Below, piece by piece: positions 1,090 to 43,775 of a DNA stretch of 43,775 nt. Position numbers and translations under genes: made by a program. The number at the start of each line of letters is the position of its first letter. Within the stretch, counting starts at the first letter, position 1. Source of the DNA: a bacterium (GTDB lineage: Bacteria; SZUA-79; Acidulodesulfobacterales; Acidulodesulfobacteraceae); the NCBI GenBank assembly GCA_003232385.1, contig QIJE01000037.1:1-43775 (forward strand), read 5' to 3'. Below the pieces are notes generated by a model. The model saw only the letters and a program-made list of their open reading frames with translations, searched no databases and had not been told where the DNA came from.

Positions 1090-1095
1090 TTGATT

Positions 1096-1689
1096 ATGGC
1101 TGATAACGACGGCATAAGAAACAGAATAATAAAAAAAAGTTATCTCCTTATATTGAATAAAGGATATAAAGGTACTACGATAGACGATATTTTAAATGAA
1201 GCAGGCGTATCTAAGGGCTCATTCTACTACTATTTTGCATCAAAAAGGGATATTGCAAAGGCGATTATCGATGAGATAATAAAAGAGGAGTTTCTCACGG
1301 TTTGGCGCAATGTTCATAAAGGCGAGGATCCGGTTAAAAATATAATAAAAAAAATCAATATGTCTTACGATAAAAAAGGTAATCATTATTCATCCACCGG
1401 ATGCCCTTTGGGTAACCTTATAGTAGAATTTTCTTCAGTAGATGTCGAATTTTCCAAAAAGACCGATTCCATCCTTAAAATGTGGTCGTCTTATATTAGG
1501 AAAGCCTTAGATAAATCATTAAGGCTCGGGATTTTAAATGCTAATTTCAATCCGGAGAAGGTAGCCGATTTTTTGGTCGCCTCAATGGAGGGATGCATTC
1601 TTGCGGCAAAATCATCTCATGATAAAAAAAAATTAAGGAATTGTTTCGATTCTATGATAAACTATTTAAAATCAATTTCCGACAACTGA
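1096..1689 (+). CDS. TetR/AcrR family transcriptional regulator
   Basis: Residues 10-57 (numbered from the upstream TTG) form the classical TetR N-terminal helix-turn-helix: the TTIDDILNEAGVSKGSFYYYF segment carries the conserved Gly-Val-Ser-x-Gly-Ser-Phe-Tyr-Tyr-Tyr-Phe signature. The C-terminal ligand domain contains a GCPLGNL motif and EGCILAAK helix typical of the LmrA/YxaF-like TetR subgroup. Length (about 197 residues) is normal. The frame can start at TTG 1090 or ATG 1096; neither has a clear ribosome binding site, and I prefer the ATG. The following cytochrome starts only 16 bases after the stop, so the two are probably one transcript and the regulator may control it and the divergent porin. 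The inducer is unknown. Confidence 0.88.
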   Translation: MADNDGIRNRIIKKSYLLILNKGYKGTTIDDILNEAGVSKGSFYYYFASKRDIAKAIIDEIIKEEFLTVWRNVHKGEDPVKNIIKKINMSYDKKGNHYSSTGCPLGNLIVEFSSVDVEFSKKTDSILKMWSSYIRKALDKSLRLGILNANFNPEKVADFLVASMEGCILAAKSSHDKKKLRNCFDSMINYLKSISDN

Positions 1690-1705: not shown

Positions 1706-2206
1706 ATGTATAAAGGAAAAAAATTATATCTGCCGATAGCTTTAGCTCTGGCTCTGCTTGTTTCCTTTTTTGTTTTGACCGCCTGCGCAAAAACAAAAAC
1801 CGAATCTAAGGGGGTTAATAAAAAATATTCATATTTAAAAAATCTTTCCGAAAATAAAAACACACATAAATTTCTAGACGCATACTGGAAGACCCCTGTC
1901 AATGAAGGGAAAACACCGCTTAACCGGCCGAAGATCCAAGAATCTCTTTCATCTTCTTCCTGTATGGCGTGCCATTATAAGCAATATACGGAATGGAAAA
2001 AATCAAGAATGGCGCATTCAATGGACGCCGGTGTAATAGGGCAGCTTTTATTGAAAAAGATGACCTCAAAACACTGGAGACCGTGGGTACTTAGCTGCCT
2101 GAGCTGCCATTCGCCGCTTGCCGGATATTACGTGCTGCATCCTGCCGAATATAAAGGACCGAGTGCAAAAGAAAAGAAAATCCTGCAAAGCGGCCAATGG
2201 TTATAG
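1706..2206 (+). CDS. Multiheme cytochrome c lipoprotein, N-terminal fragment (frameshifted)
   Basis: The protein has an N-terminal hydrophobic signal ending in a lipobox, LTAC, with the lipidated Cys at residue 27, so it would be anchored in a membrane facing the periplasm or cell surface. Two c-type heme motifs follow: CMACH (86-90) and CLSCH (131-135). The frame stops at 2204-2206 just after LQSGQWL, while the next frame, overlapping by 10 bases, carries three more heme motifs and no signal peptide. The two ORFs therefore read as one pentaheme cytochrome of about 430 residues interrupted by a shift from frame 2 to frame 1, probably in the A-rich run 2167-2180. It is either a recent pseudogene or a one-base sequence error. 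No good ribosome binding site is visible before the ATG. Confidence 0.8.
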   Translation: MYKGKKLYLPIALALALLVSFFVLTACAKTKTESKGVNKKYSYLKNLSENKNTHKFLDAYWKTPVNEGKTPLNRPKIQESLSSSSCMACHYKQYTEWKKSRMAHSMDAGVIGQLLLKKMTSKHWRPWVLSCLSCHSPLAGYYVLHPAEYKGPSAKEKKILQSGQWL

Positions 2207-3036
2207 CGTTGAATGCCTTAAAAATACCGATGGAAAACGGCGACTCAAGTGTTAGCTGCTCTTCCTGTCACGTCAGATACTTCCGCAGATTCGGTCCTCC
2301 GGTAGCAAAATACATTAAAGAAGGAAAGATTGCCCACAGGGGATTTGTTTCCTCTAAGGCCTTTTTAAGTTCTTACTTTTGCATAAAATGCCATCAACTT
2401 CCTCGGGATAATAGAAGGCTTAAAGGAAAATTATTCGAAAATACCTACTACGAATGGAAAAAGAGTATCTATGCAAAAAAGGGTATTTCATGCGAGACTT
2501 GTCATACTCCGCACGGTTCAATGGCTTTTAAAAGTATTTATAACAAGGATTTCATATTAAAAGCTATAACTATACGTCTTAAAAGGGTTAAAATTTATTC
2601 GGGCAGGGTAAATACGATTTTGAGCGTAACAAATTCCGGGGTAGGACATGATTTTCCCACATATACTACGCCTAAGGTTATTTTAAATATAGCGCAGGAG
2701 AAAGTAAACGGAAACATCATAGGTAAATCGGCCAAACATTACGTAATAGGCTGGAGCGTAAGTTTAAATCTAAAAAAACAATATTTCGACACACGGTTAA
2801 AACCTTTTCAAACCGGTATACTGATATATGATTATCCATTGCTTAACGGCTCTAGATATTTAAAGGCATGGATTACCGTTAAACCGGAATCTCACTATAC
2901 ACGGTTCTTCAAGGCATATTTAAAGATGAAACGGCTGCCTGAAATCATAAGGATCATGTTCTTGAAAGCCTTAAAGGGGGATAAGAGCAGTAAATATCTA
3001 CTCTGGAGAAAACGGGTAAGAATACCTCTTCGATAA
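2197..3036 (+). CDS. Multiheme cytochrome c, C-terminal fragment (frameshifted)
   Basis: This is the continuation of the preceding lipoprotein cytochrome. It carries three heme-binding motifs, CSSCH (21-25), CIKCH (62-66) and CETCH (99-103), then a beta-rich C-terminal domain with the motif NSGVGHDFPTYTTPK (146-160). A similar NxGxGHxFPTYxTP signature is known in multiheme cytochromes of deltaproteobacteria and relatives. As an independent product it would lack any export signal and its hemes could not be attached, so translation from ATG 2197 alone is unlikely to give a working protein. The section before the first heme (VIALNALKIPMENGDSSVS) looks like genuine coding sequence, which places the frameshift upstream of about 2200. 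The gene ends directly at a hairpin terminator. Confidence 0.8.
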   Translation: MVIALNALKIPMENGDSSVSCSSCHVRYFRRFGPPVAKYIKEGKIAHRGFVSSKAFLSSYFCIKCHQLPRDNRRLKGKLFENTYYEWKKSIYAKKGISCETCHTPHGSMAFKSIYNKDFILKAITIRLKRVKIYSGRVNTILSVTNSGVGHDFPTYTTPKVILNIAQEKVNGNIIGKSAKHYVIGWSVSLNLKKQYFDTRLKPFQTGILIYDYPLLNGSRYLKAWITVKPESHYTRFFKAYLKMKRLPEIIRIMFLKALKGDKSSKYLLWRKRVRIPLR

Positions 3037-3080
3037 AAGAGGGGGTCGGTTAATCCCCCCCCTCTTTACCTTTATTTTTT
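3036..3080. terminator. Bidirectional rho-independent terminator between convergent operons
   Basis: AAAGAGGGGG (3036-3045) pairs perfectly with CCCCCTCTTT (3058-3067). On the plus strand a T-rich tract follows to 3080, and on the minus strand the A-rich left side gives the T tract. It lies between the stop codons of the cytochrome (+) and the Spy-like gene (-). Confidence 0.85.
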
Positions 3081-3612
3081 AATGAATCATTTTCCGCATT
3101 TTTGCCGCCTTGATTTTTGCAAGCTTTAAATACGTTATTCTTTGAGATGTGTCAAGCAACCTATATGCTTTAATATGGGAGGGTATCATTATGTATCCGA
3201 GATATGTTTCCGCCTCCCCTACTGCTTTGGTACGGCCTATTAATTTTTTTATACTTGGATTTTTACGCATAGCCGCGGTTCTATACGCAAGTATCGCCTT
3301 TTTAAGTGTCTTGATGCCTTGTTTTGTATCGTTCATCATCTCCTTTGCAATCATCTTCTCCTGTAAAACTTGCACCGGCGTTAACTTCAAAACCTTGGCA
3401 TTTTTGTAAACCCAGAAAGGACCCGGATGAAATATGTAGAAATTAAATCTAAAGTTTAACGAATGCATCCTAAAAAATCTCTTCATATTCCGCGTTTTTT
3501 TTGTTTTGCTCATAGCACACGCATTAATAGGCATATTTGCACTTGCTCCGCTAATATTGAAACCTAAAAATACGGCCAAAAACAAAAATGCGGCCAAAAA
3601 AATCTTTTTCAT
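3079..3612 (-). CDS. Spy/CpxP-like periplasmic LTxxQ protein
   Basis: A signal peptide (residues 1-25, cleavage near ASA-N) is followed by a helical, Lys/Met-rich protein with LTPVQ at 77-81 and a second LTxxQ-like segment (LLDTSQRITYL) near 152. Paired LTxxQ motifs define the Spy/CpxP/ZraP group of periplasmic chaperones and metal-stress sensors. Length (177) is normal for the group. Two Cys at residues 32 and near the N-terminus are uncommon for Spy. It is the last gene of the minus-strand sulfur operon, 18 bases after the rhodanese stop, and may protect periplasmic proteins from damage linked to sulfur or metal stress. Function is inferred from motif and fold only. Confidence 0.7.
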   Translation of the reverse strand: MKKIFLAAFLFLAVFLGFNISGASANMPINACAMSKTKKTRNMKRFFRMHSLNFRFNFYIFHPGPFWVYKNAKVLKLTPVQVLQEKMIAKEMMNDTKQGIKTLKKAILAYRTAAMRKNPSIKKLIGRTKAVGEAETYLGYIMIPSHIKAYRLLDTSQRITYLKLAKIKAAKMRKMIH

Positions 3613-3630: not shown

Positions 3631-4581
3631 TTATTTTTTATAATTATGTATGTGTAAATCCACTATGGGAGCGTTGGGGAGCCTGGAATATTGCGTCCAT
3701 GAACCGTTATAGTCGGCTACATCATTTTTCCCGATCAAAAATTTAGTCACAAACCAGTCGAGGCTTGCCCAGTATCCCGTATTACAATATGTAATTACCG
3801 GCTTTCTAAAACTTACTCCCGCTTTTATCATTACAGCCCTTGCTTCCGCAGGGGTTACAAACTCATAATAGCCTGCACTATTCATTCTTTCAAACTTTTC
3901 AAACGGAACATTGATTGCCCCGGGTATGTGTCCGTGCTTCACGAACCTCTTATCATGGTCTATCCCCTCATACCATGCCGAGGGGCGGGCATCTATCAAA
4001 ACGGCATCGCGGGTCTCTAAATATTTCCATATGCGTTGATACGGAGCACGCGAATACAAATTAATATCGGCGATTTTAAAGTTACTTTCCGTAGGATGCG
4101 AAGGTTTAACGGTAATAGGCAGCTTGTCGTGCATCCACCTTGCTAATCCGCCGTTTAATATCGCCGTGTTTCTTAATCCGTAAAACCACGCCGTCCATAG
4201 CGCCCTGGTTTCACTGCTGTAACCGAGCGGAAATTCGGATAAGCCGCCCCCGGTGAAAACGATTATACTGCGGTCGGTTATACCGGCATGCCTATAAATA
4301 TCGGCCATTCTTTGCGGACTTGCAATGTTTCCGAGAACCTTAATGCCGACATAATCCTGCATTATAGAAGGAAACGGTATGTCTACCGCCCCGGGGATAT
4401 GTCCTGATGCATAGGCTTTTGGAGCCCTTATATCTACTATAACCATATTCTTATTATTTATATGGTTATAAACCCAGTGCGGCGAAACCAAATGATTCTT
4501 CGGAACATTAAGGGCGTAAATGCTACCCACCCATAAAAACATCACCGCAAAGGCAATTATTAAAATTTTTAACTTTTTCAT
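3631..4581 (-). CDS. Periplasmic tandem-rhodanese sulfurtransferase
   Basis: A signal peptide (about 1-23) is followed by two rhodanese domains. The first (about 30-155) has the conserved IVDIRAPKAYASGHIPGAVDIP strand-loop but FTGGGLSEF in place of a catalytic Cys. The second (about 175-305) has LIDARPSAWYEGI, HGHIPGAINVPF and the active-site loop CNTGYWA with Cys266. This inactive-plus-active arrangement is the thiosulfate/3-mercaptopyruvate sulfurtransferase type. It would form a Cys-persulfide from thiosulfate or polysulfide and pass it to an acceptor such as sulfite or cyanide. Export to the periplasm and position behind the TusA/DsrE genes suggest a role in external sulfur-compound turnover. 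The ATG start is supported by the signal peptide. Confidence 0.9.
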   Translation of the reverse strand: MKKLKILIIAFAVMFLWVGSIYALNVPKNHLVSPHWVYNHINNKNMVIVDIRAPKAYASGHIPGAVDIPFPSIMQDYVGIKVLGNIASPQRMADIYRHAGITDRSIIVFTGGGLSEFPLGYSSETRALWTAWFYGLRNTAILNGGLARWMHDKLPITVKPSHPTESNFKIADINLYSRAPYQRIWKYLETRDAVLIDARPSAWYEGIDHDKRFVKHGHIPGAINVPFEKFERMNSAGYYEFVTPAEARAVMIKAGVSFRKPVITYCNTGYWASLDWFVTKFLIGKNDVADYNGSWTQYSRLPNAPIVDLHIHNYKK

Positions 4582-4633
4582 GGCACTTTTCTCCTAAATT
4601 AAAAATTAAGTTTAATTACTTACGTTAACGCTC

Positions 4634-4825
4634 TCATAAACCCTTAACGACGATAGGAACGTCGCTCCATAAAATCTCATCTAAAATCATACTTTCGTCA
4701 TTATTTTTCATAATCTCTTTAACTTTCAAGCCTCTTTTTTTCAAATTTTCGGCTACCTTATGCATGATATTATCCCTCTCAATCTCCGAGCTATCAACGT
4801 ATAGAAACAAAAATTTTTTATTCAT
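4634..4825 (-). CDS. Small cytoplasmic protein of the sulfur cluster (unknown)
   Basis: A 63-residue protein whose start overlaps the previous stop by four bases (ATGA), so it is probably translationally coupled to the DsrE-like gene before it. It begins with a beta strand (KKFLFLYVD), an amphipathic Lys-rich helix and ends with VPIVVKGL, an alpha/beta pattern like one half of a DsrE/TusB fold, but it is far shorter than TusB/DsrH (about 95) and has no Cys. I do not recognise a family. Its fixed place inside the operon suggests a structural subunit for the neighbouring DsrE-like proteins. Confidence 0.6.
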   Translation of the reverse strand: MNKKFLFLYVDSSEIERDNIMHKVAENLKKRGLKVKEIMKNNDESMILDEILWSDVPIVVKGL

Positions 4826-5091
4826 AATATATACACCACATCCGCATTTTGTACTTCATCGGTTAAATTATTCAAATCAGAATCACTATCGGGATTTACG
4901 TACTGCAGCGGGATTTCACAGAACTCAATAGTCTCAAGTTGAATATTTATATTTTCGTTTTTTTCCAAATCACCGACAACAACGACCCTTACTTTGTCGT
5001 CCAATAACATTAAACCGTTCGCCATTCTCAACCCTTCATACTTTTTAAATTGCGATATTACCAATATATGTTTCGGCTCTTTATTTTCCAT
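4822..5091 (-). CDS. DsrE-fold-like small protein of the sulfur cluster
   Basis: 89 residues with the pattern of a DsrE/DsrF domain: strand KHILVIS, helix YEGLRMANGLMLL, strand VRVVVVGD, and a C-terminal ADVVYIL strand. The AN(G/A)LxxL helix after the first strand is common in DsrE-like proteins that form hexamers. Only one Cys (58) is present and it does not sit at the usual sulfur-carrier place, so it may be a structural partner like TusC/DsrF rather than a carrier. It lies 35 bases after the preceding DsrE-like gene and overlaps the next. Assignment is by secondary-structure pattern and context, not by a diagnostic motif. Confidence 0.6.
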   Translation of the reverse strand: MENKEPKHILVISQFKKYEGLRMANGLMLLDDKVRVVVVGDLEKNENINIQLETIEFCEIPLQYVNPDSDSDLNNLTDEVQNADVVYIL

Positions 5092-5126
5092 AATTTATCC
5101 TTGTTTTATCGTATAATTATATGAAT

Positions 5127-5435
5127 TTAGAATACGATTATCTTATCGGAGCGGTTAACCAATTCGGCATCCTGATATTGTCCGCCTATAACCGTCTTAT
5201 CTTTAAATTTTTCAATATTTTTAGTTTCCCCCAACCTATCAATAGAGTATTCGCAAACTGAGACCTTGCAACCGATCTGATCCGTTAAATCGGTAAAATT
5301 CGCAGAGTTCAGCAACAGAATACCCCTATCCGTCAAAAAACATTCAGTCTCAAAACCCTTTAAAGATGCTGTTCTTAATAAGTTTATCGCGTTATTCATA
5401 TATCTATCGTCGGTTATTACTATGCCGATGTGCAT
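5127..5435 (-). CDS. DsrE-like sulfur-relay protein
   Basis: 102 residues starting MHIGIVITDDRYMNNAINLLRTASLKGFETECFLTDRGIL in outline: an N-terminal strand, a helix with conserved Asn/Leu spacing, then a strand and Thr-Asp-Arg-Gly turn, characteristic of DsrE/DsrF superfamily domains. Cysteines at 32, 56 and 61 are candidates for sulfur binding; Cys56/Cys61 lie in the part where sulfur carriers hold their reactive Cys. The start is supported by a G-rich ribosome binding site (AGAGGGGGG, about 5442-5450). It lies directly downstream of tusA, the known partner of DsrE-type proteins in sulfur transfer. Confidence 0.7.
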   Translation of the reverse strand: MHIGIVITDDRYMNNAINLLRTASLKGFETECFLTDRGILLLNSANFTDLTDQIGCKVSVCEYSIDRLGETKNIEKFKDKTVIGGQYQDAELVNRSDKIIVF

Positions 5436-5480
5436 ATGAAACCCCCCTCTCTATATTATGATGCAAAATTCGTGATATCT

Positions 5481-5729
5481 TCATTTCACGATCTCAATAA
5501 TATAAATACCCTTCTCCAATATTTCATTCGCAACGGAATGGTCTTCGTTTTTGCACATCTGCAGTATGCTCTCGTGAGAGGAGGGATTGCTTATTTTAAT
5601 ATTTACATGATCGCCCTTATTTATCTTTTCTAAAACCTTTTTAGCATACATTTGAGGAACGGGACAAACATAACCCGTAACATCCAACACATAGTTGTTA
5701 TCGTCTATTTTTTCGAATTTTACCGCCAT
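5481..5729 (-). CDS. tusA: TusA/SirA-family sulfur carrier protein
   Basis: 82 residues, the normal TusA length. After an N-terminal strand (YVLDVTGY) comes the defining CPxP motif, Cys22-Pro-Val-Pro25, at the start of helix 1; Cys22 carries the persulfide. The rest shows the two-layer TusA fold with a C-terminal strand GIYIIEI. TusA proteins accept sulfur from desulfurases or rhodaneses and pass it to DsrE-type acceptors; here the gene lies between a TusA paralogue and a DsrE-like gene in one operon. It is a cytoplasmic protein without a signal. The symbol is used in the family sense; in this setting the role is likely dissimilatory rather than tRNA thiolation. Confidence 0.9.
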   Translation of the reverse strand: MAVKFEKIDDNNYVLDVTGYVCPVPQMYAKKVLEKINKGDHVNIKISNPSSHESILQMCKNEDHSVANEILEKGIYIIEIVK

Positions 5730-5761
5730 GATGTTTTATAGCCCCCTTTTTTAATTTAGTT

Positions 5762-6022
5762 TTATTCCTTGAGAATCTCGTATGTATACACTCCTTTCTC
5801 GTCGGTAACGCCTATTAATTCACATTTTTTTTCGACTTCGCACAATCCCGTAATGCCGAAACACTCGCCGCACGACGAGCCTTTTACCATTACCTTTAAA
5901 TGAAATCCGCCCTTGAGTTTACCTATCGCATTTTTAACATATACCTGCGTTCTTTTTTCGCTCATCTTTCTGCAATCAAGCACGTAAATATATTCGGATT
6001 GTTTTCGTAAGACCTCGCTCAT
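5762..6022 (-). CDS. Divergent TusA-like protein with Cys-rich insertion
   Basis: 86 residues aligning end to end with TusA in pattern: strand YIYVLDCRKM at the place of the CPxP loop, helix QVYVKNAIGKLKGG, strand HLKVMVKG and final strand GVYTYEI. The catalytic loop keeps the Cys (17) but loses both Pro (Cys-Arg-Lys-Met). Instead there is a loop with Cys51, Cys54 (SCGEC), Cys61 and Cys67. These four cysteines could bind a metal or Fe-S cluster or give disulfide/persulfide chemistry; this is inference. It stands 32 bases upstream of canonical tusA and 36 bases after the transporter gene, so it is expressed with them. Confidence 0.7.
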   Translation of the reverse strand: MSEVLRKQSEYIYVLDCRKMSEKRTQVYVKNAIGKLKGGFHLKVMVKGSSCGECFGITGLCEVEKKCELIGVTDEKGVYTYEILKE

Positions 6023-6058
6023 AATTTTTATCTCACCGTTGCATAATTACATAAAACC

Positions 6059-7516
6059 TTATATATTATCTAATCCCTTCAGCTCTTTGGCACTCTTATA
6101 ATTAATCCATTTACCGATTGTTTTAACCGCAAAATAACTTCCTATTATCATGCCGACAAAATAAAGCCAGCCGCTTGGGTCTCCATTGACAACGGGAACA
6201 AAGAATGCTCCGATATTGCATCCTAATCCGATTCTCACGCCGATGCCCATAAACCAACCGCCGAATGTTGCAAAAGCTATTGTTTCGAGATTTGGAATTT
6301 TCCAGCTAAATTCTTTAAAGGAAATCGCCATAATGGCCGCACCAATAATCGTTCCGAAAGACATTAACAGGGGCGGGTTAAGCAAGGGGTTAGGGATTCC
6401 GTTTACAAAACCGAAGGTCATGTTATTCATTAAATTCCATCCCAATTTTTGAAATATCCATGCCAATCCTTGAGCCTCCTGAGTTGCAATATACCAGTAA
6501 CCCGGGTCAAACACGCCTTGAAGTGCTATTCCATGGGTATAGCCTAATCTCTCAAGTACCTGTCCGAAATTTACAAAATGATATACTTTGCGAAGATCGC
6601 TCAGTACAAACATATTGAGTCCCGCAAAAACCCCGAGACCGATACCACCGTACACGGTCTTTTTAGCCTGTACGAGCATTGACCACATTCCTTTCAACTC
6701 ATTCTTAAATCCTATTTTTTTTGACGTAAATTTATTCTCGTGTATATAATGTTTTCTATGATACAAATAATATATTACGATAAGAACGATTACACACGGG
6801 ATAAAAACGTTAATAAAAGTATTGCTGATAAAAACGTTTGCCCATATATTGTGAAAATTGAGCAGATCCGCTATCGTATAGCCTTTATGCGTAAAAACAT
6901 AACCGGCCATAAAATAATCGTACCACGTGTGTAAATATTCCTTAGGTATTCCCTGATGAATAGCGGCTACCTTCCATGCTTTAGGAATAAAATAATTCAA
7001 AAAACCGAAACTGGTTGCCGCAAACACGATCTGCGACAATGCCAAATTGAAAAGGACTATCCACGAAGCCATGTTCCCTTCTCCCGACTTGTACAGCGTA
7101 CCGGATGAACAACCCCCGGCAAAAACAATACCGAACCCGAATATCGCCCCACCGATTAATTCGCTGACGGCGAATGGATTAGGCGAAAAAGTAAGGAAAT
7201 TAAATCCCGTAACTATTGCCGAAATGATACCGTAAACTATTATGGCGATCATCAGCCCCGCAGCAACTCTCACGACCTTAACGGCGAATATGTCTCGAAC
7301 GGCGGACGCCATGCAAAAATGGCCGTATTGAAGAAATAATCCGAATATTAACCCAAACCAGTAATAAGCGAGAAGATATATAAACACATGATGAACGTCA
7401 TACATTATTACCGAACCGATTATGCTTAAAACCAATAATGTTATTAAGCCCACCGGAAACTTTTTAATTTTAGGAGACTGCATGGCCCCAACACTGCAAG
7501 AACTATTATTTGACAC
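6059..7516 (-). CDS. YeeE/YedE-family sulfur transport membrane protein
   Basis: 485 residues with about ten hydrophobic segments and the three Cys-containing signatures of the YeeE/YedE (TsuA-like) family: YGHFCMAS (Cys68), FAGGCSSGTLYKSGEGN (Cys136) and GLGCNIGAF (Cys433). The family's characterised members move thiosulfate across the inner membrane by Cys-mediated relay. The protein is longer than typical bacterial TsuA (about 330-350), with a hydrophilic cytoplasmic loop near 260-290 separating two halves, as in fused YedE proteins. The start is GTG 7516, supported by a GGGAGGG site seven bases before it. Association with tusA and dsrE genes is the classical context for this family. Confidence 0.9.
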   Translation of the reverse strand: MSNNSSCSVGAMQSPKIKKFPVGLITLLVLSIIGSVIMYDVHHVFIYLLAYYWFGLIFGLFLQYGHFCMASAVRDIFAVKVVRVAAGLMIAIIVYGIISAIVTGFNFLTFSPNPFAVSELIGGAIFGFGIVFAGGCSSGTLYKSGEGNMASWIVLFNLALSQIVFAATSFGFLNYFIPKAWKVAAIHQGIPKEYLHTWYDYFMAGYVFTHKGYTIADLLNFHNIWANVFISNTFINVFIPCVIVLIVIYYLYHRKHYIHENKFTSKKIGFKNELKGMWSMLVQAKKTVYGGIGLGVFAGLNMFVLSDLRKVYHFVNFGQVLERLGYTHGIALQGVFDPGYWYIATQEAQGLAWIFQKLGWNLMNNMTFGFVNGIPNPLLNPPLLMSFGTIIGAAIMAISFKEFSWKIPNLETIAFATFGGWFMGIGVRIGLGCNIGAFFVPVVNGDPSGWLYFVGMIIGSYFAVKTIGKWINYKSAKELKGLDNI

Positions 7517-7590
7517 GACAAAACCCTCCCTTAGATTTTAATCATCAATATCTTTAACGTACATTGCAATATTTATCAAAAAACATCTAA

Positions 7591-8106
7591 TCAACCCTTA
7601 AGTTTCGGGGCATTTGGATGCGCCGCGTAAAACGCCTTTTCTTCAGATTCAGCTTTTTTAACTATTTGCGAAAGATCGGAGGCATGACATGCTTCGCACG
7701 AGAACTTAGGTGTCTTAAGGGGATCGGTTATTAAATTAGTATGCGCCATACCTTTCGCGATTGCAAAATGATTCCCTTTATGACAGGTAATACAACTTAT
7801 ATTGCGCACCGGACGATGAACATGGTGTATCGGCCCGAGATCCTTTTCCGCTATGCCCCCGCTATGGCATTCAACGCAGCTTGAGGGTGCAAGTCCGCAA
7901 GCGTTGGCAACGGGAGACTTAAAACCCTTTAGAACTTTGCCGGAAATAAGACCCAACGAAAGACTTTTAGACCGGGCTTTACGGCTGACCGCGACGTGTG
8001 ATTTGACGGAGTTGCTCATCCATAACCTGCTGAAAATAACCGCGCCGAAAATAAAAGGCACTACCAACGCAAATAAAAAAACTTTTTTCCATTTAATTTT
8101 TTTCAT
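7591..8106 (-). CDS. Membrane-anchored triheme cytochrome c
   Basis: 171 residues: a positively charged N-terminus and one uncleaved-looking membrane segment (about 9-27), followed by a periplasmic region with three heme motifs, CVECH (77-81), CITCH (105-109) and CEACH (137-141). Additional His (near 94-97, 113, 122) may be distal heme ligands. It looks like a small NapC/NrfH-unrelated electron-transfer protein similar to class III-type or split-Soret cytochromes, but I cannot name a subfamily. It is the first gene of the sulfur operon, 74 bases upstream of the transporter gene, and probably takes electrons from or gives them to periplasmic sulfur chemistry. Confidence 0.85.
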   Translation of the reverse strand: MKKIKWKKVFLFALVVPFIFGAVIFSRLWMSNSVKSHVAVSRKARSKSLSLGLISGKVLKGFKSPVANACGLAPSSCVECHSGGIAEKDLGPIHHVHRPVRNISCITCHKGNHFAIAKGMAHTNLITDPLKTPKFSCEACHASDLSQIVKKAESEEKAFYAAHPNAPKLKG

Positions 8107-29798: not shown

Positions 29799-30359
29799 CT
29801 ACTGCAAATTCCCGCTATAGCTCACAAGACCGGTTACCGGATAGATATAAAAGGTTAAAGACGACAAAACGCCGAAAGACGAATGAATCGTTTTATCGAA
29901 CGGCGTAAAACTAGAGCATGTATCCACGAATACCCCCGGCTCCCCTGCGGAATTAAAAGCAATATAATTATGGTCGGTACTTATTTTATAATTTATACCG
30001 TAATTCATGGCAACGTAAAAATTATCCGTCGTTTGCGCCAGCGGGTTTGCAAGCGGTTCCGGTTTACTTATAGCAGGATTGCAGGCACACACGGCATAAC
30101 CGGAATAGCTTACGCCGCTACTGCCCAGAACACAGGAAGGATTTGATCCCGAAGCGGAAAATACGACTGCGGTGTACGTAAAATGGCTCATTGCATAATT
30201 TTGGGCATACCTAATCGCGGATTGAAGCTGTTTTTCATACATGCCACTATCCCCCGAGACCGCCGAATTAAGACCCGTCGTCCCGAGAATGCCTAAAACT
30301 CCCAGAAGAATAATCACCATTATTATTTCGACTAAGGTAAAGCCGCTTCTTCTTTTCAT
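29799..30359 (-). CDS. Type IV pseudopilin (GspH/MSHA-like)
   Basis: 186 residues. The N-terminus KRRSG-FTLVEIIMVIILLGVLGILG is a prepilin peptidase site: cleavage after Gly6, N-methyl-Phe and conserved Glu at mature position 5. The globular part is Ser/Tyr-rich with four or five Cys. Such proteins are minor pilins of type II secretion or type IV pili; no other pilus gene is next to it, though a PilY1 gene lies at the right end of the window. The start has no good ribosome site, but the location at the prepilin leader is convincing. Confidence 0.9.
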   Translation of the reverse strand: MKRRSGFTLVEIIMVIILLGVLGILGTTGLNSAVSGDSGMYEKQLQSAIRYAQNYAMSHFTYTAVVFSASGSNPSCVLGSSGVSYSGYAVCACNPAISKPEPLANPLAQTTDNFYVAMNYGINYKISTDHNYIAFNSAGEPGVFVDTCSSFTPFDKTIHSSFGVLSSLTFYIYPVTGLVSYSGNLQ

Positions 30360-41700: not shown

Positions 41701-43775
41701 TTACGGCAACTGAAACCAAGAAGTATGTATAAATTTAGACGGCATCGATGGTATATTTTGAGTCAAAACTACTCCGCTTGATGTCGTTATTAAGATTTTT
41801 TTATGCGATACAACCGGGGTCGACGGTGCTCCGGAGCCTATAGTCAAAGACTGAACCGCTCCGCTGCCCAGCGCCGCCGTATTTGAAATCGTGACCGTTC
41901 CGCTGCTTGACGTGGTAATCGTTCCTCCGCCGTTTAAATAATAAACCGCATACAATTTCGCTGTTCCGGAGCCGCAGGCATTCACCGCCGCAGACGGTGT
42001 ATAAGTTACAAAATATACTATATTGTCATATACGATAGGCGTACCTACTACCTTTTCGCCGGAACTTAATTTTATATACCAACCATTGCTTCCTGCGGTT
42101 CCGATGCCGCTTGTACCGGTTTCATTAATTAAATCGGTTTCATTATAGGCGCCCGTAGCGCATTCACCGATTCCTGGAGTCCCCTTCGTATTTAATCCTA
42201 TTAATTCATTATCCCTCGTCGTGTTTACTTCCGTTAAGTTTTCCCTGTTACCCGTACCGAAATACAGCCATAAATTGCCGGAGGTATCATAAGAAATTGC
42301 CGGAGGAAAAAAGATATTTAACGGAACAGTCGTTGACGCATCAGAATCGAAAACCCTGCACCCCTTCCATTTAGACGGAACCGCCCCGTATGGTATATTA
42401 AACGCCCACATCTGACCCCCTAAATCTCCGACATAAAAGGCTTGAAGCCGAAAACTAGAGCTTAAAACAGGCGATACGGCAGACGGTATGGAATATTTCA
42501 TATTAGCATTATAGAACTTCCATAACTCTTGCTTGTTAATATAATTAGGAGCAGTGGTTCCGATATTCACCGGGTTAGGTTCAACATATAACGAATAGAC
42601 TGCCTGTCCCGCCGAGTTATTTGATGAATAACCTCCCCCCATAAAAGCGGCATAGGTCTTAACGAACTGCGGAGCAACCTCGGGACTCGGCGGAAGAGGA
42701 TTATTTCCGCATATCCCCGTGCCCGCGGTCTTGTAATTCGGATTCGGAAGGCATATATAAGCTATTAAGGGTTCCGACCATGTATTGCCCATCGGGTGGT
42801 CTTTTGAGGCCGAAGCATCCGAAAAGTCCCATAAAGGGTTGGGATAACCGTTTGTTAAGTTGGAAGGATCAGTCAGTCCCAAAGCATAATAAGCCCGCCC
42901 TCCGTTTCTTTCACCGTCGACTAATACCGTATGCCAGCTGCTTACAGGCGTGCCGGTCGTAGTTATCGGATAGTCGGACGTATCCGTACCGTTAGTCGTT
43001 CCGTTAAAAACATTGCCGAAGAACACGTCGCTTACATGCGGAGTAGAATCGACAAATTCAAAAATAGATGGTTTTGTGACCGACGTTTCATACCACTCAG
43101 TGATTTTGGGCAAGGTTGAAGAGCCGGCTGTATCTAAAAAATTAGGCGGGATATAACCGAAAAGCTCCGCCCCGGTTCCATCGGTATAAGAACTCGTGCT
43201 GCTATCCCACGTCCCCGCATCAAAACCGTGAAGCATGCCGTCGTTGGCTCCGACTGCCAAAACCTGTTGCCTTGTAGCATAGAGTTTTTTAAACGCCTGA
43301 TACGACGTGCTTGAATAGGGATACGGCGGCGGACCGACTAAGACGGGGTCGGAATGAAATATCGCTCCCAATTTCCAATTATCCGTAGCACTATCGGGAT
43401 TTAAAACAAAATTTATGATATCATCGGCGCAGGCGCTTTCCGATCTTTCCGATAAAGAATTCGGGCAGACCGTCGAATAATTACCCGCCGTTAATCCCAA
43501 TAATGATTCTAAATTTGCCGTATTGGATGTATTAAATTCGACGGCAGTATTTAAACCGGTAGTCGGATCAATTTTGGATGTGATTATATACCTTGACGAG
43601 GCGGGTTTCGTTTGAAGGGCGCCGCCTGCACCGTTGCCGTTATCCCAGTACGAATCACTGGTAATTATCTGTCCGCTGGCGTTGACGGCGAGGCCGTCGG
43701 GGCCTATTAACTGTCCCTGTGCGTTTAATTTAAAGAGAAAAACGTTGCCTTCTCCCCAAAGGGGCTGATTTAACG
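41701..43775 (-). CDS. pilY1: PilY1-like type IV pilus tip/adhesin protein, C-terminal part (runs off right edge)
   Basis: The open frame extends beyond the right edge; about 690 residues lie in the window (a TTG at 43500 is only an internal codon). The C-terminal beta-propeller of PilY1/PilC is recognised by WKLGAIFHSDPVLVG, QQVLAVGANDGMLHGFDAG, ELFGYIPPNFL, TWSEPLIAYI, YVGDLGGQMWAFNIPYG, YFGTGNRENL and NAVYYL-type blades. PilY1 sits at the tip of type IV pili and acts in adhesion and mechanosensing. The N-terminal, often von Willebrand-like, half is outside. Upstream piece starts QPLWGEGNVFLFKLNAQG, also typical. A pseudopilin is at 29799. Confidence 0.92.
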   Translation of the reverse strand, partial: LNQPLWGEGNVFLFKLNAQGQLIGPDGLAVNASGQIITSDSYWDNGNGAGGALQTKPASSRYIITSKIDPTTGLNTAVEFNTSNTANLESLLGLTAGNYSTVCPNSLSERSESACADDIINFVLNPDSATDNWKLGAIFHSDPVLVGPPPYPYSSTSYQAFKKLYATRQQVLAVGANDGMLHGFDAGTWDSSTSSYTDGTGAELFGYIPPNFLDTAGSSTLPKITEWYETSVTKPSIFEFVDSTPHVSDVFFGNVFNGTTNGTDTSDYPITTTGTPVSSWHTVLVDGERNGGRAYYALGLTDPSNLTNGYPNPLWDFSDASASKDHPMGNTWSEPLIAYICLPNPNYKTAGTGICGNNPLPPSPEVAPQFVKTYAAFMGGGYSSNNSAGQAVYSLYVEPNPVNIGTTAPNYINKQELWKFYNANMKYSIPSAVSPVLSSSFRLQAFYVGDLGGQMWAFNIPYGAVPSKWKGCRVFDSDASTTVPLNIFFPPAISYDTSGNLWLYFGTGNRENLTEVNTTRDNELIGLNTKGTPGIGECATGAYNETDLINETGTSGIGTAGSNGWYIKLSSGEKVVGTPIVYDNIVYFVTYTPSAAVNACGSGTAKLYAVYYLNGGGTITTSSSGTVTISNTAALGSGAVQSLTIGSGAPSTPVVSHKKILITTSSGVVLTQNIPSMPSKFIHTSWFQLP

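Follow-up and report, generated by a model that had tools for sequence, protein, structure and literature searches.

Which metabolism is served by the minus-strand block of sulfur genes on contig QIJE01000037.1, and do the cytochrome and rhodanese genes encoded with it belong to the same unit? The window, a 43,775-nucleotide stretch from a bacterium of the Acidulodesulfobacteraceae (assembly GCA_003232385.1), a family in a small and largely uncultured phylum, carries a gene cluster of the YTD type, the name for loci that combine yedE, tusA and dsrE with two or three conserved genes for hypothetical proteins (PMC12998232, PMC8780430). The role of YTD clusters, as markers of sulfur disproportionation or as sulfur-oxidation transferases, is disputed in papers from 2026. 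We find good evidence, at the level of sequence, that the window's operon is a real functional unit, and it probably imports sulfane sulfur to feed the Dsr pathway. Its core is already known as YTD; a triheme cytochrome, a TusA paralogue devoid of the CPxP motif and a separate YedE subfamily make it distinctive.

Nine genes form one minus-strand run from position 8106 to 3079, according to the list of open reading frames (ORFs) and Pfam matches. The run is headed by a triheme cytochrome c with an N-terminal membrane anchor (7591..8106), followed by a 485-residue YeeE/YedE-family transporter (6059..7516), an 86-residue TusA-fold protein lacking CPxP (5762..6022), a TusA sulfur carrier (5481..5729), a DsrE (5127..5435), the small proteins Chp1 (4822..5091) and Chp2 (63 residues; 4634..4825), whose genes share an ATGA overlap, an exported two-domain rhodanese (3631..4581) and an exported helical Spy-like protein (3079..3612). 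Every gene named in an earlier sequence-only reading of this DNA is present in the order it gave, although the Spy-like gene lies outside the range of 3631-8106 to which that reading had confined the cluster.

Among 30 sampled genomes of the phylum, window-type clusters occur in three (G000, G009 and G010) and canonical YTD clusters in 12, and no genome holds both types. The full block recurs in the metagenome-assembled genome TL1-5.bin36 at 68-87% protein identity, split over two contigs: L037 carries the cytochrome and YedE, and L038 the YedE end, TusA-like, TusA, DsrE, Chp1, Chp2, rhodanese and Spy-like genes, which face a pentaheme cytochrome and a TetR gene. The order is also largely retained in G010, from the cytochrome through YedE, TusA-like, TusA, DsrE, Chp1 and Chp2 to the rhodanese and the facing pentaheme cytochrome; the Spy-like and TetR genes are missing between the latter two (L076). 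The YedE gene of G010 (L010:1486-2946) is interrupted about halfway by an in-frame TAA stop. The conservation of gene order that the sequence-only reading had asked for is thus found in relatives. The flanks are ffh and rpsP in the window and cobalamin (cob) genes in G009 and G010, and we regard the block as a functional unit because it stays together while the flanking genes change. In the comparison with TL1-5.bin36 the third codon position is the most divergent in every operon gene (for the three positions, 8/6/37% in Chp2 and 14/10/40% in DsrE), and this clustering of substitutions indicates that the genes are real. The TTGACA-N17-TTAAAT promoter that had been proposed for the operon is present as a string from 8216 downwards, but it counts as weak evidence because promoter-like sites in the region number 22 against 20.8 expected by chance; a terminator scan of the region likewise gave chance-level results.

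The identity of the core follows from the DsrE and Chp proteins. In May 2026, the DsrE-like protein of YTD clusters and its two hypothetical companions were identified as DsrEFH type II, encoded in a yeeE-tusA-dsrEFH type II arrangement (PMC13293266). We built test hidden Markov models (HMMs) from the canonical YTD clusters of the same phylum, leaving out the window-type rows, so that the reference is the relatives' clusters rather than published sequences. These models matched the window DsrE (E=1.6e-17) and Chp1 (E=4.8e-13), the sole clear matches among 382 window reading frames; DsrE also exceeds the cut-off of PF02635 (E=1.8e-5). The DsrE retains the conserved catalytic cysteine as its predicted active Cys61, invariant in seven sequences, and the protein encoded next to it is recognized as Chp1, the DsrF-like type II subunit, both by the HMM and by alignment. 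Chp2, which is 86% identical in L038, is placed as the DsrH-like subunit by position and size only. Profile comparison with hhalign matched the window DsrE to the type I DsrE of the same genome (75.6%, E=2.4e-5) and returned no match of Chp1 and Chp2 to type I DsrF and DsrH, or of the Chp1 profile to the DsrE profile. Together with the Pfam matches of YeeE, TusA and DsrE, these sequence matches make the cluster core a YTD one, with Chp2 assigned by place and size, and the "two small proteins" of the sequence-only reading are its DsrF/H-like members.

The transporter belongs to the YeeE/YedE family (PF04143, E=6e-45) and is the single member encoded in its genome. Its Cys68, Cys136 and Cys433 align with the three conserved cysteines of Spirochaeta thermophila TsuA (6LEO), two of which are reported to be indispensable (PMC11582611). 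It falls in a distinct subfamily with full-length relatives in G176 (44% identity) and G314 (43%). A contig search with the single YedE sequence returned only TL1-5.bin36, a second domain-wide genome sample yielded no more members of the subfamily, and the search of the phylum of G176 covered two genomes. The adjoining TusA (PF01206, E=9.7e-15) has the CPVP motif at Cys22 and is 50% identical to the TusA next to the G314 YedE. The CPxP-less protein scores E=0.024 against Pfam TusA and is recognized as a TusA-fold paralogue by hhalign against a TusA profile (97.2%, E=3e-11), with five cysteines conserved in the alignment: Cys17, a CX2C pair (51/54), Cys61 and Cys67. Among the loci inspected, this paralogue and the triheme cytochrome are confined to the three clusters of the window type.

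The exported rhodanese (PF00581, E=5.3e-27; 1UAR, E=5.5e-27) does comprise two domains, as proposed, but harbours a single active site, Cys266 within CNTGYWAS of the C-terminal domain; the N-terminal domain is devoid of cysteine. It is not the special addition that the sequence-only reading took it for: in the canonical YTD clusters inspected in relatives (L077, L080, L082 and L084 by search, others by eye), the gene right after Chp2 encodes a single-domain exported rhodanese, so the link is an ordinary one and, from these gene neighbourhoods, a periplasmic rhodanese is a regular YTD companion. The Spy-like protein shares 35% identity (E=4e-31) with one encoded near a relative's canonical YTD cluster.

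The triheme cytochrome, by contrast with the rhodanese, marks the variant. It contains CVECH, CITCH and CEACH motifs, weakly matches the Cytochrome_C7/C554 families and has no sulfur-specific domain. It has homologues in L037 (1403-1918) and L010/L076 (72-74%) and opens the same-strand run in three of three window-type clusters, and it is found in none of the canonical YTD clusters inspected and at neither the G176 nor the G314 locus. On this distribution, the gene linkage of the cytochrome to the YTD core that had been proposed is real and specific to the window-type variant.

Facing the operon on the plus strand is a pentaheme cytochrome c lipoprotein gene (1706..3036) that is an intact ORF of 446/456 residues in L038 and L076. 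In the window, about 16 bases are missing near 2195 relative to L038 and the frame is split into two ORFs, which reflects either real decay or an assembly error. The relatives' protein has an MtrC/MtrF-like domain, a feature that would be consistent with outward electron transfer but is no proof of it. Beyond it lies a TetR-family regulator gene (1090..1689, plus strand; PF00440, E=3e-13), which also adjoins the operon in L038 (5169-5768) and canonical YTD clusters (L077/L078/L080). Farther along, the window encodes a pilin-like protein (29799-30359) and a large protein that by eye resembles PilY1-type pilus tip proteins (41701-43500).

The remainder of the genome supplies a potential recipient for the sulfur. 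A single run on C1 (L069:7967-19001) reads dsrAB-dsrD-dsrL-dsrC-dsrMK-dsrEFH(type I)-sat-aprBA. Its layout agrees with that published for the dsr operon of Ca. Acidulodesulfobacterales (PMC6776010), which points to that lineage (SZUA-79 in GTDB). DsrA (495.8 against a cut-off of 392.85 bits), DsrB (499 against 341.5), DsrK (519 against 400), Sat and the type I DsrE, DsrF and DsrH all score above their cut-offs; DsrM (113 against 300 bits) is named by position, and AprB and AprA are assigned by sequence reading only. The run also encodes a 79-residue DsrD-like protein, a DsrL-like NAD(P)-binding protein and DsrC. The dsrAB, aprAB and sat genes, for which the sequence-only reading had suggested a search, are therefore present. 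At the C18 locus (L070:3340-6384), a type III SQR-like gene adjoins TusA and DsrE-family genes and a divergent Chp1-Chp2 pair, which brings the genome to three DsrE-type sulfur-transfer loci. In G009 and G010, a Chp1-Chp2 pair lies next to the aldolase and DUF255-like genes that also occur at C18, with no SQR detected nearby. A check for the MOLY cluster (MolyABC), another part of the disproportionation genotype, found two molybdopterin oxidoreductases besides NuoG in the genome, none above an equivalog cut-off. A TusA-family frame elsewhere (G000:C7:20145-20348; L075:5080-5400, minus strand) has an in-frame TGA at the place of CPxP and would read LCUGPP with selenocysteine; the organism probably makes selenoproteins, since its SelD gene (C2:74424) also has an in-frame TGA.

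We propose that the operon imports sulfane sulfur for the Dsr pathway, a function that we judge probable from its gene content. The periplasmic rhodanese would process reduced sulfur, either polysulfide or sulfane sulfur and possibly thiosulfate, and YedE may then carry the sulfur across the membrane by way of its three cysteines. TusA Cys22 would accept it, perhaps with the CPxP-less paralogue as a docking or accessory partner of YedE, and would pass it to Cys61 of DsrE within a putative DsrEFH type II complex. From there the sulfur could proceed to DsrC and to the DsrAB-Apr-Sat pathway, operating oxidatively. The triheme cytochrome, together with the pentaheme cytochrome adjoining the cluster in relatives, would probably take electrons from the periplasmic sulfur chemistry, from the membrane or from a quinol enzyme. 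The sequences themselves establish what the genes are, how they are ordered and conserved, which key cysteines they encode and that Dsr, Apr, Sat and SQR-like genes accompany them; we infer the substrate, the direction, the assembly of the complex and each electron step, and with these the complete, electron-handling module put forward in the sequence-only reading. The sulfur-transfer steps have precedents, established or proposed, in cable bacteria and Hyphomicrobium and in the biochemistry of DsrEFH type II and SoxT/YeeE (PMC13293266, PMC11582611): the cable-bacterial complex of DsrE, Chp1 and Chp2 is a sulfur transferase to DsrC in vitro that depends on a single essential cysteine (PMC13293266). 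In addition, Sqr, YeeE, Rhd and TusA are transcribed or upregulated in Desulfurivibrio alkaliphilus oxidizing sulfide with iron(III) (PMC12545173).

Several observations weigh against this proposal. The dsr operon already includes a type I DsrEFH, and the product of the cluster might therefore serve another role. The canonical Chp2 HMM does not match the window Chp2, although its position and size fit. The AlphaFold2 (AF2) model of Chp2, with a predicted local distance difference test (pLDDT) score of 72.8, had no structural match in the PDB, leaving a DsrH fold unsupported, and the Chp1 model, computed from a two-row alignment, reached a pLDDT of only 40, leaving a DsrF fold unsupported as well. 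The SQR-like protein scores 344 bits against a family cut-off of 525.

The triheme cytochrome could be merely a neighbour with no functional tie to the sulfur genes, as its absence from the inspected canonical clusters and the two loci outside the phylum, and its lack of a sulfur-specific domain, would allow; its place at the head of the run in all window-type clusters, even though the flanks differ between G000 and G009/G010, makes this unlikely. The operon could also form a self-contained cassette in which the rhodanese and YedE import sulfane sulfur and the triheme and pentaheme cytochromes export electrons, for instance to iron(III). We consider such a cassette improbable; through it, the Dsr pathway inside the cell would be connected by a single operon to an acceptor outside, in acidic habitats rich in iron. 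Alternatively, the cluster might be dedicated to sulfur disproportionation, importing sulfur from S0 or thiosulfate for the oxidative half, with sulfide formed elsewhere. The data do not indicate such a role, which we rate as rather unlikely. The genome has dsrAB, apr and sat, which are part of a disproportionation genotype, the same proteins could serve the oxidative half, and YTD proteins were more abundant in Desulfolithobacter during thiosulfate disproportionation (PMC9751629). The marker status of YTD, on which the sequence-only reading had relied, is contested: one study retains it as a candidate (PMC12998232) and another, PMC13047784, reaches the same structural conclusion on DsrEFH type II but favours disproportionation, whereas a survey that found DsrEFH type II in 985 genomes, including 25 of 63 known disproportionators and many sulfate reducers that do not disproportionate, judged the idea poorly supported (PMC13293266).

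Thiosulfate uptake by a TsuA/TsuB (YeeE/YeeD)-like pair, either assimilatory or feeding Dsr, would agree with the alignment of YedE to TsuA, the three retained cysteines and the adjoining TusA. Nevertheless, the scores fall far under the curated NCBIfam cut-offs for TsuA (95.5 against 400 bits) and TsuB (29.9 against 147.5), assimilation needs no DsrEFH partners and thiosulfate did not persulfidate the cable-bacterial TusA or DsrEFH II (PMC13293266), so that we see little likelihood in it. Least probable is a selenium or tellurium module, in which a YedE selenium transporter would act with a rhodanese and multiheme cytochrome akin to those of the Geobacter ext genes. The selenium YedE/FdhT model is the best NCBIfam match of the transporter, the rhodanese weakly matches ExtH and the pentaheme cytochrome ExtKL, and the presence of SelD removes its absence as an argument. 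These matches, however, are far under cut-off (101.6 against 350, 66 against 200 and 36-40 against 250 bits; a further selenium transporter model gives 60.4 against 200), no selenium gene lies near the operon, and DsrE, Chp1 and TusA indicate sulfur.

The variant bears on how YTD clusters are understood. It shows a YTD core combined with a different YedE and linked to a cytochrome, while a rhodanese is its regular companion and the genome has a type I DsrEFH as well. It provides a defined gene set, kept in a second genus, for testing the contributions of the uptake side and of the cytochrome. A limited literature search retrieved no paper describing a cytochrome-bearing YTD cluster with a separate YedE subfamily.

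With the clusters of Electronema aureum and Desulfolithobacter dissulfuricans, the window shares YeeE/YedE, a TusA with CPxP, and a DsrE that has one conserved catalytic cysteine and precedes two small proteins (DsrE-Chp1-Chp2); it differs in its 485-residue YedE subfamily, the extra CPxP-less TusA, the triheme cytochrome and two-domain rhodanese within the run and a very divergent Chp2. Canonical YTD clusters of the same phylum (for example G011/L077) likewise have DsrE-Chp1-Chp2 followed by an exported rhodanese, with TetR nearby and, in several cases, a Spy-like protein. However, their YedE has 392 residues (phmmer E~1e-19 to the window type) and is preceded by TusA, they encode a 97-residue membrane protein and an NHL-repeat protein, their rhodanese has a single domain and the triheme cytochrome is absent. 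The G314 and G176 loci, from outside the phylum, share a similar YedE, an adjoining TusA and a nearby periplasmic rhodanese, and in G314 rhodanese-Chp1-Chp2-DsrE immediately precedes YedE-TusA; universal stress proteins, a second YedE in G314 and the absence of a triheme cytochrome and of a TusA paralogue without CPxP distinguish them. The G314 genes (L093:4992-9769) form a single run with two different YedE, universal stress proteins, rhodanese, Chp1, Chp2, DsrE and TusA. Finally, TsuA/TsuB and SoxT have in common with the window the YeeE fold, the three conserved cysteines and an adjoining TusA-family protein, whereas the window proteins lie below the curated cut-offs and are linked to DsrEFH type II genes.

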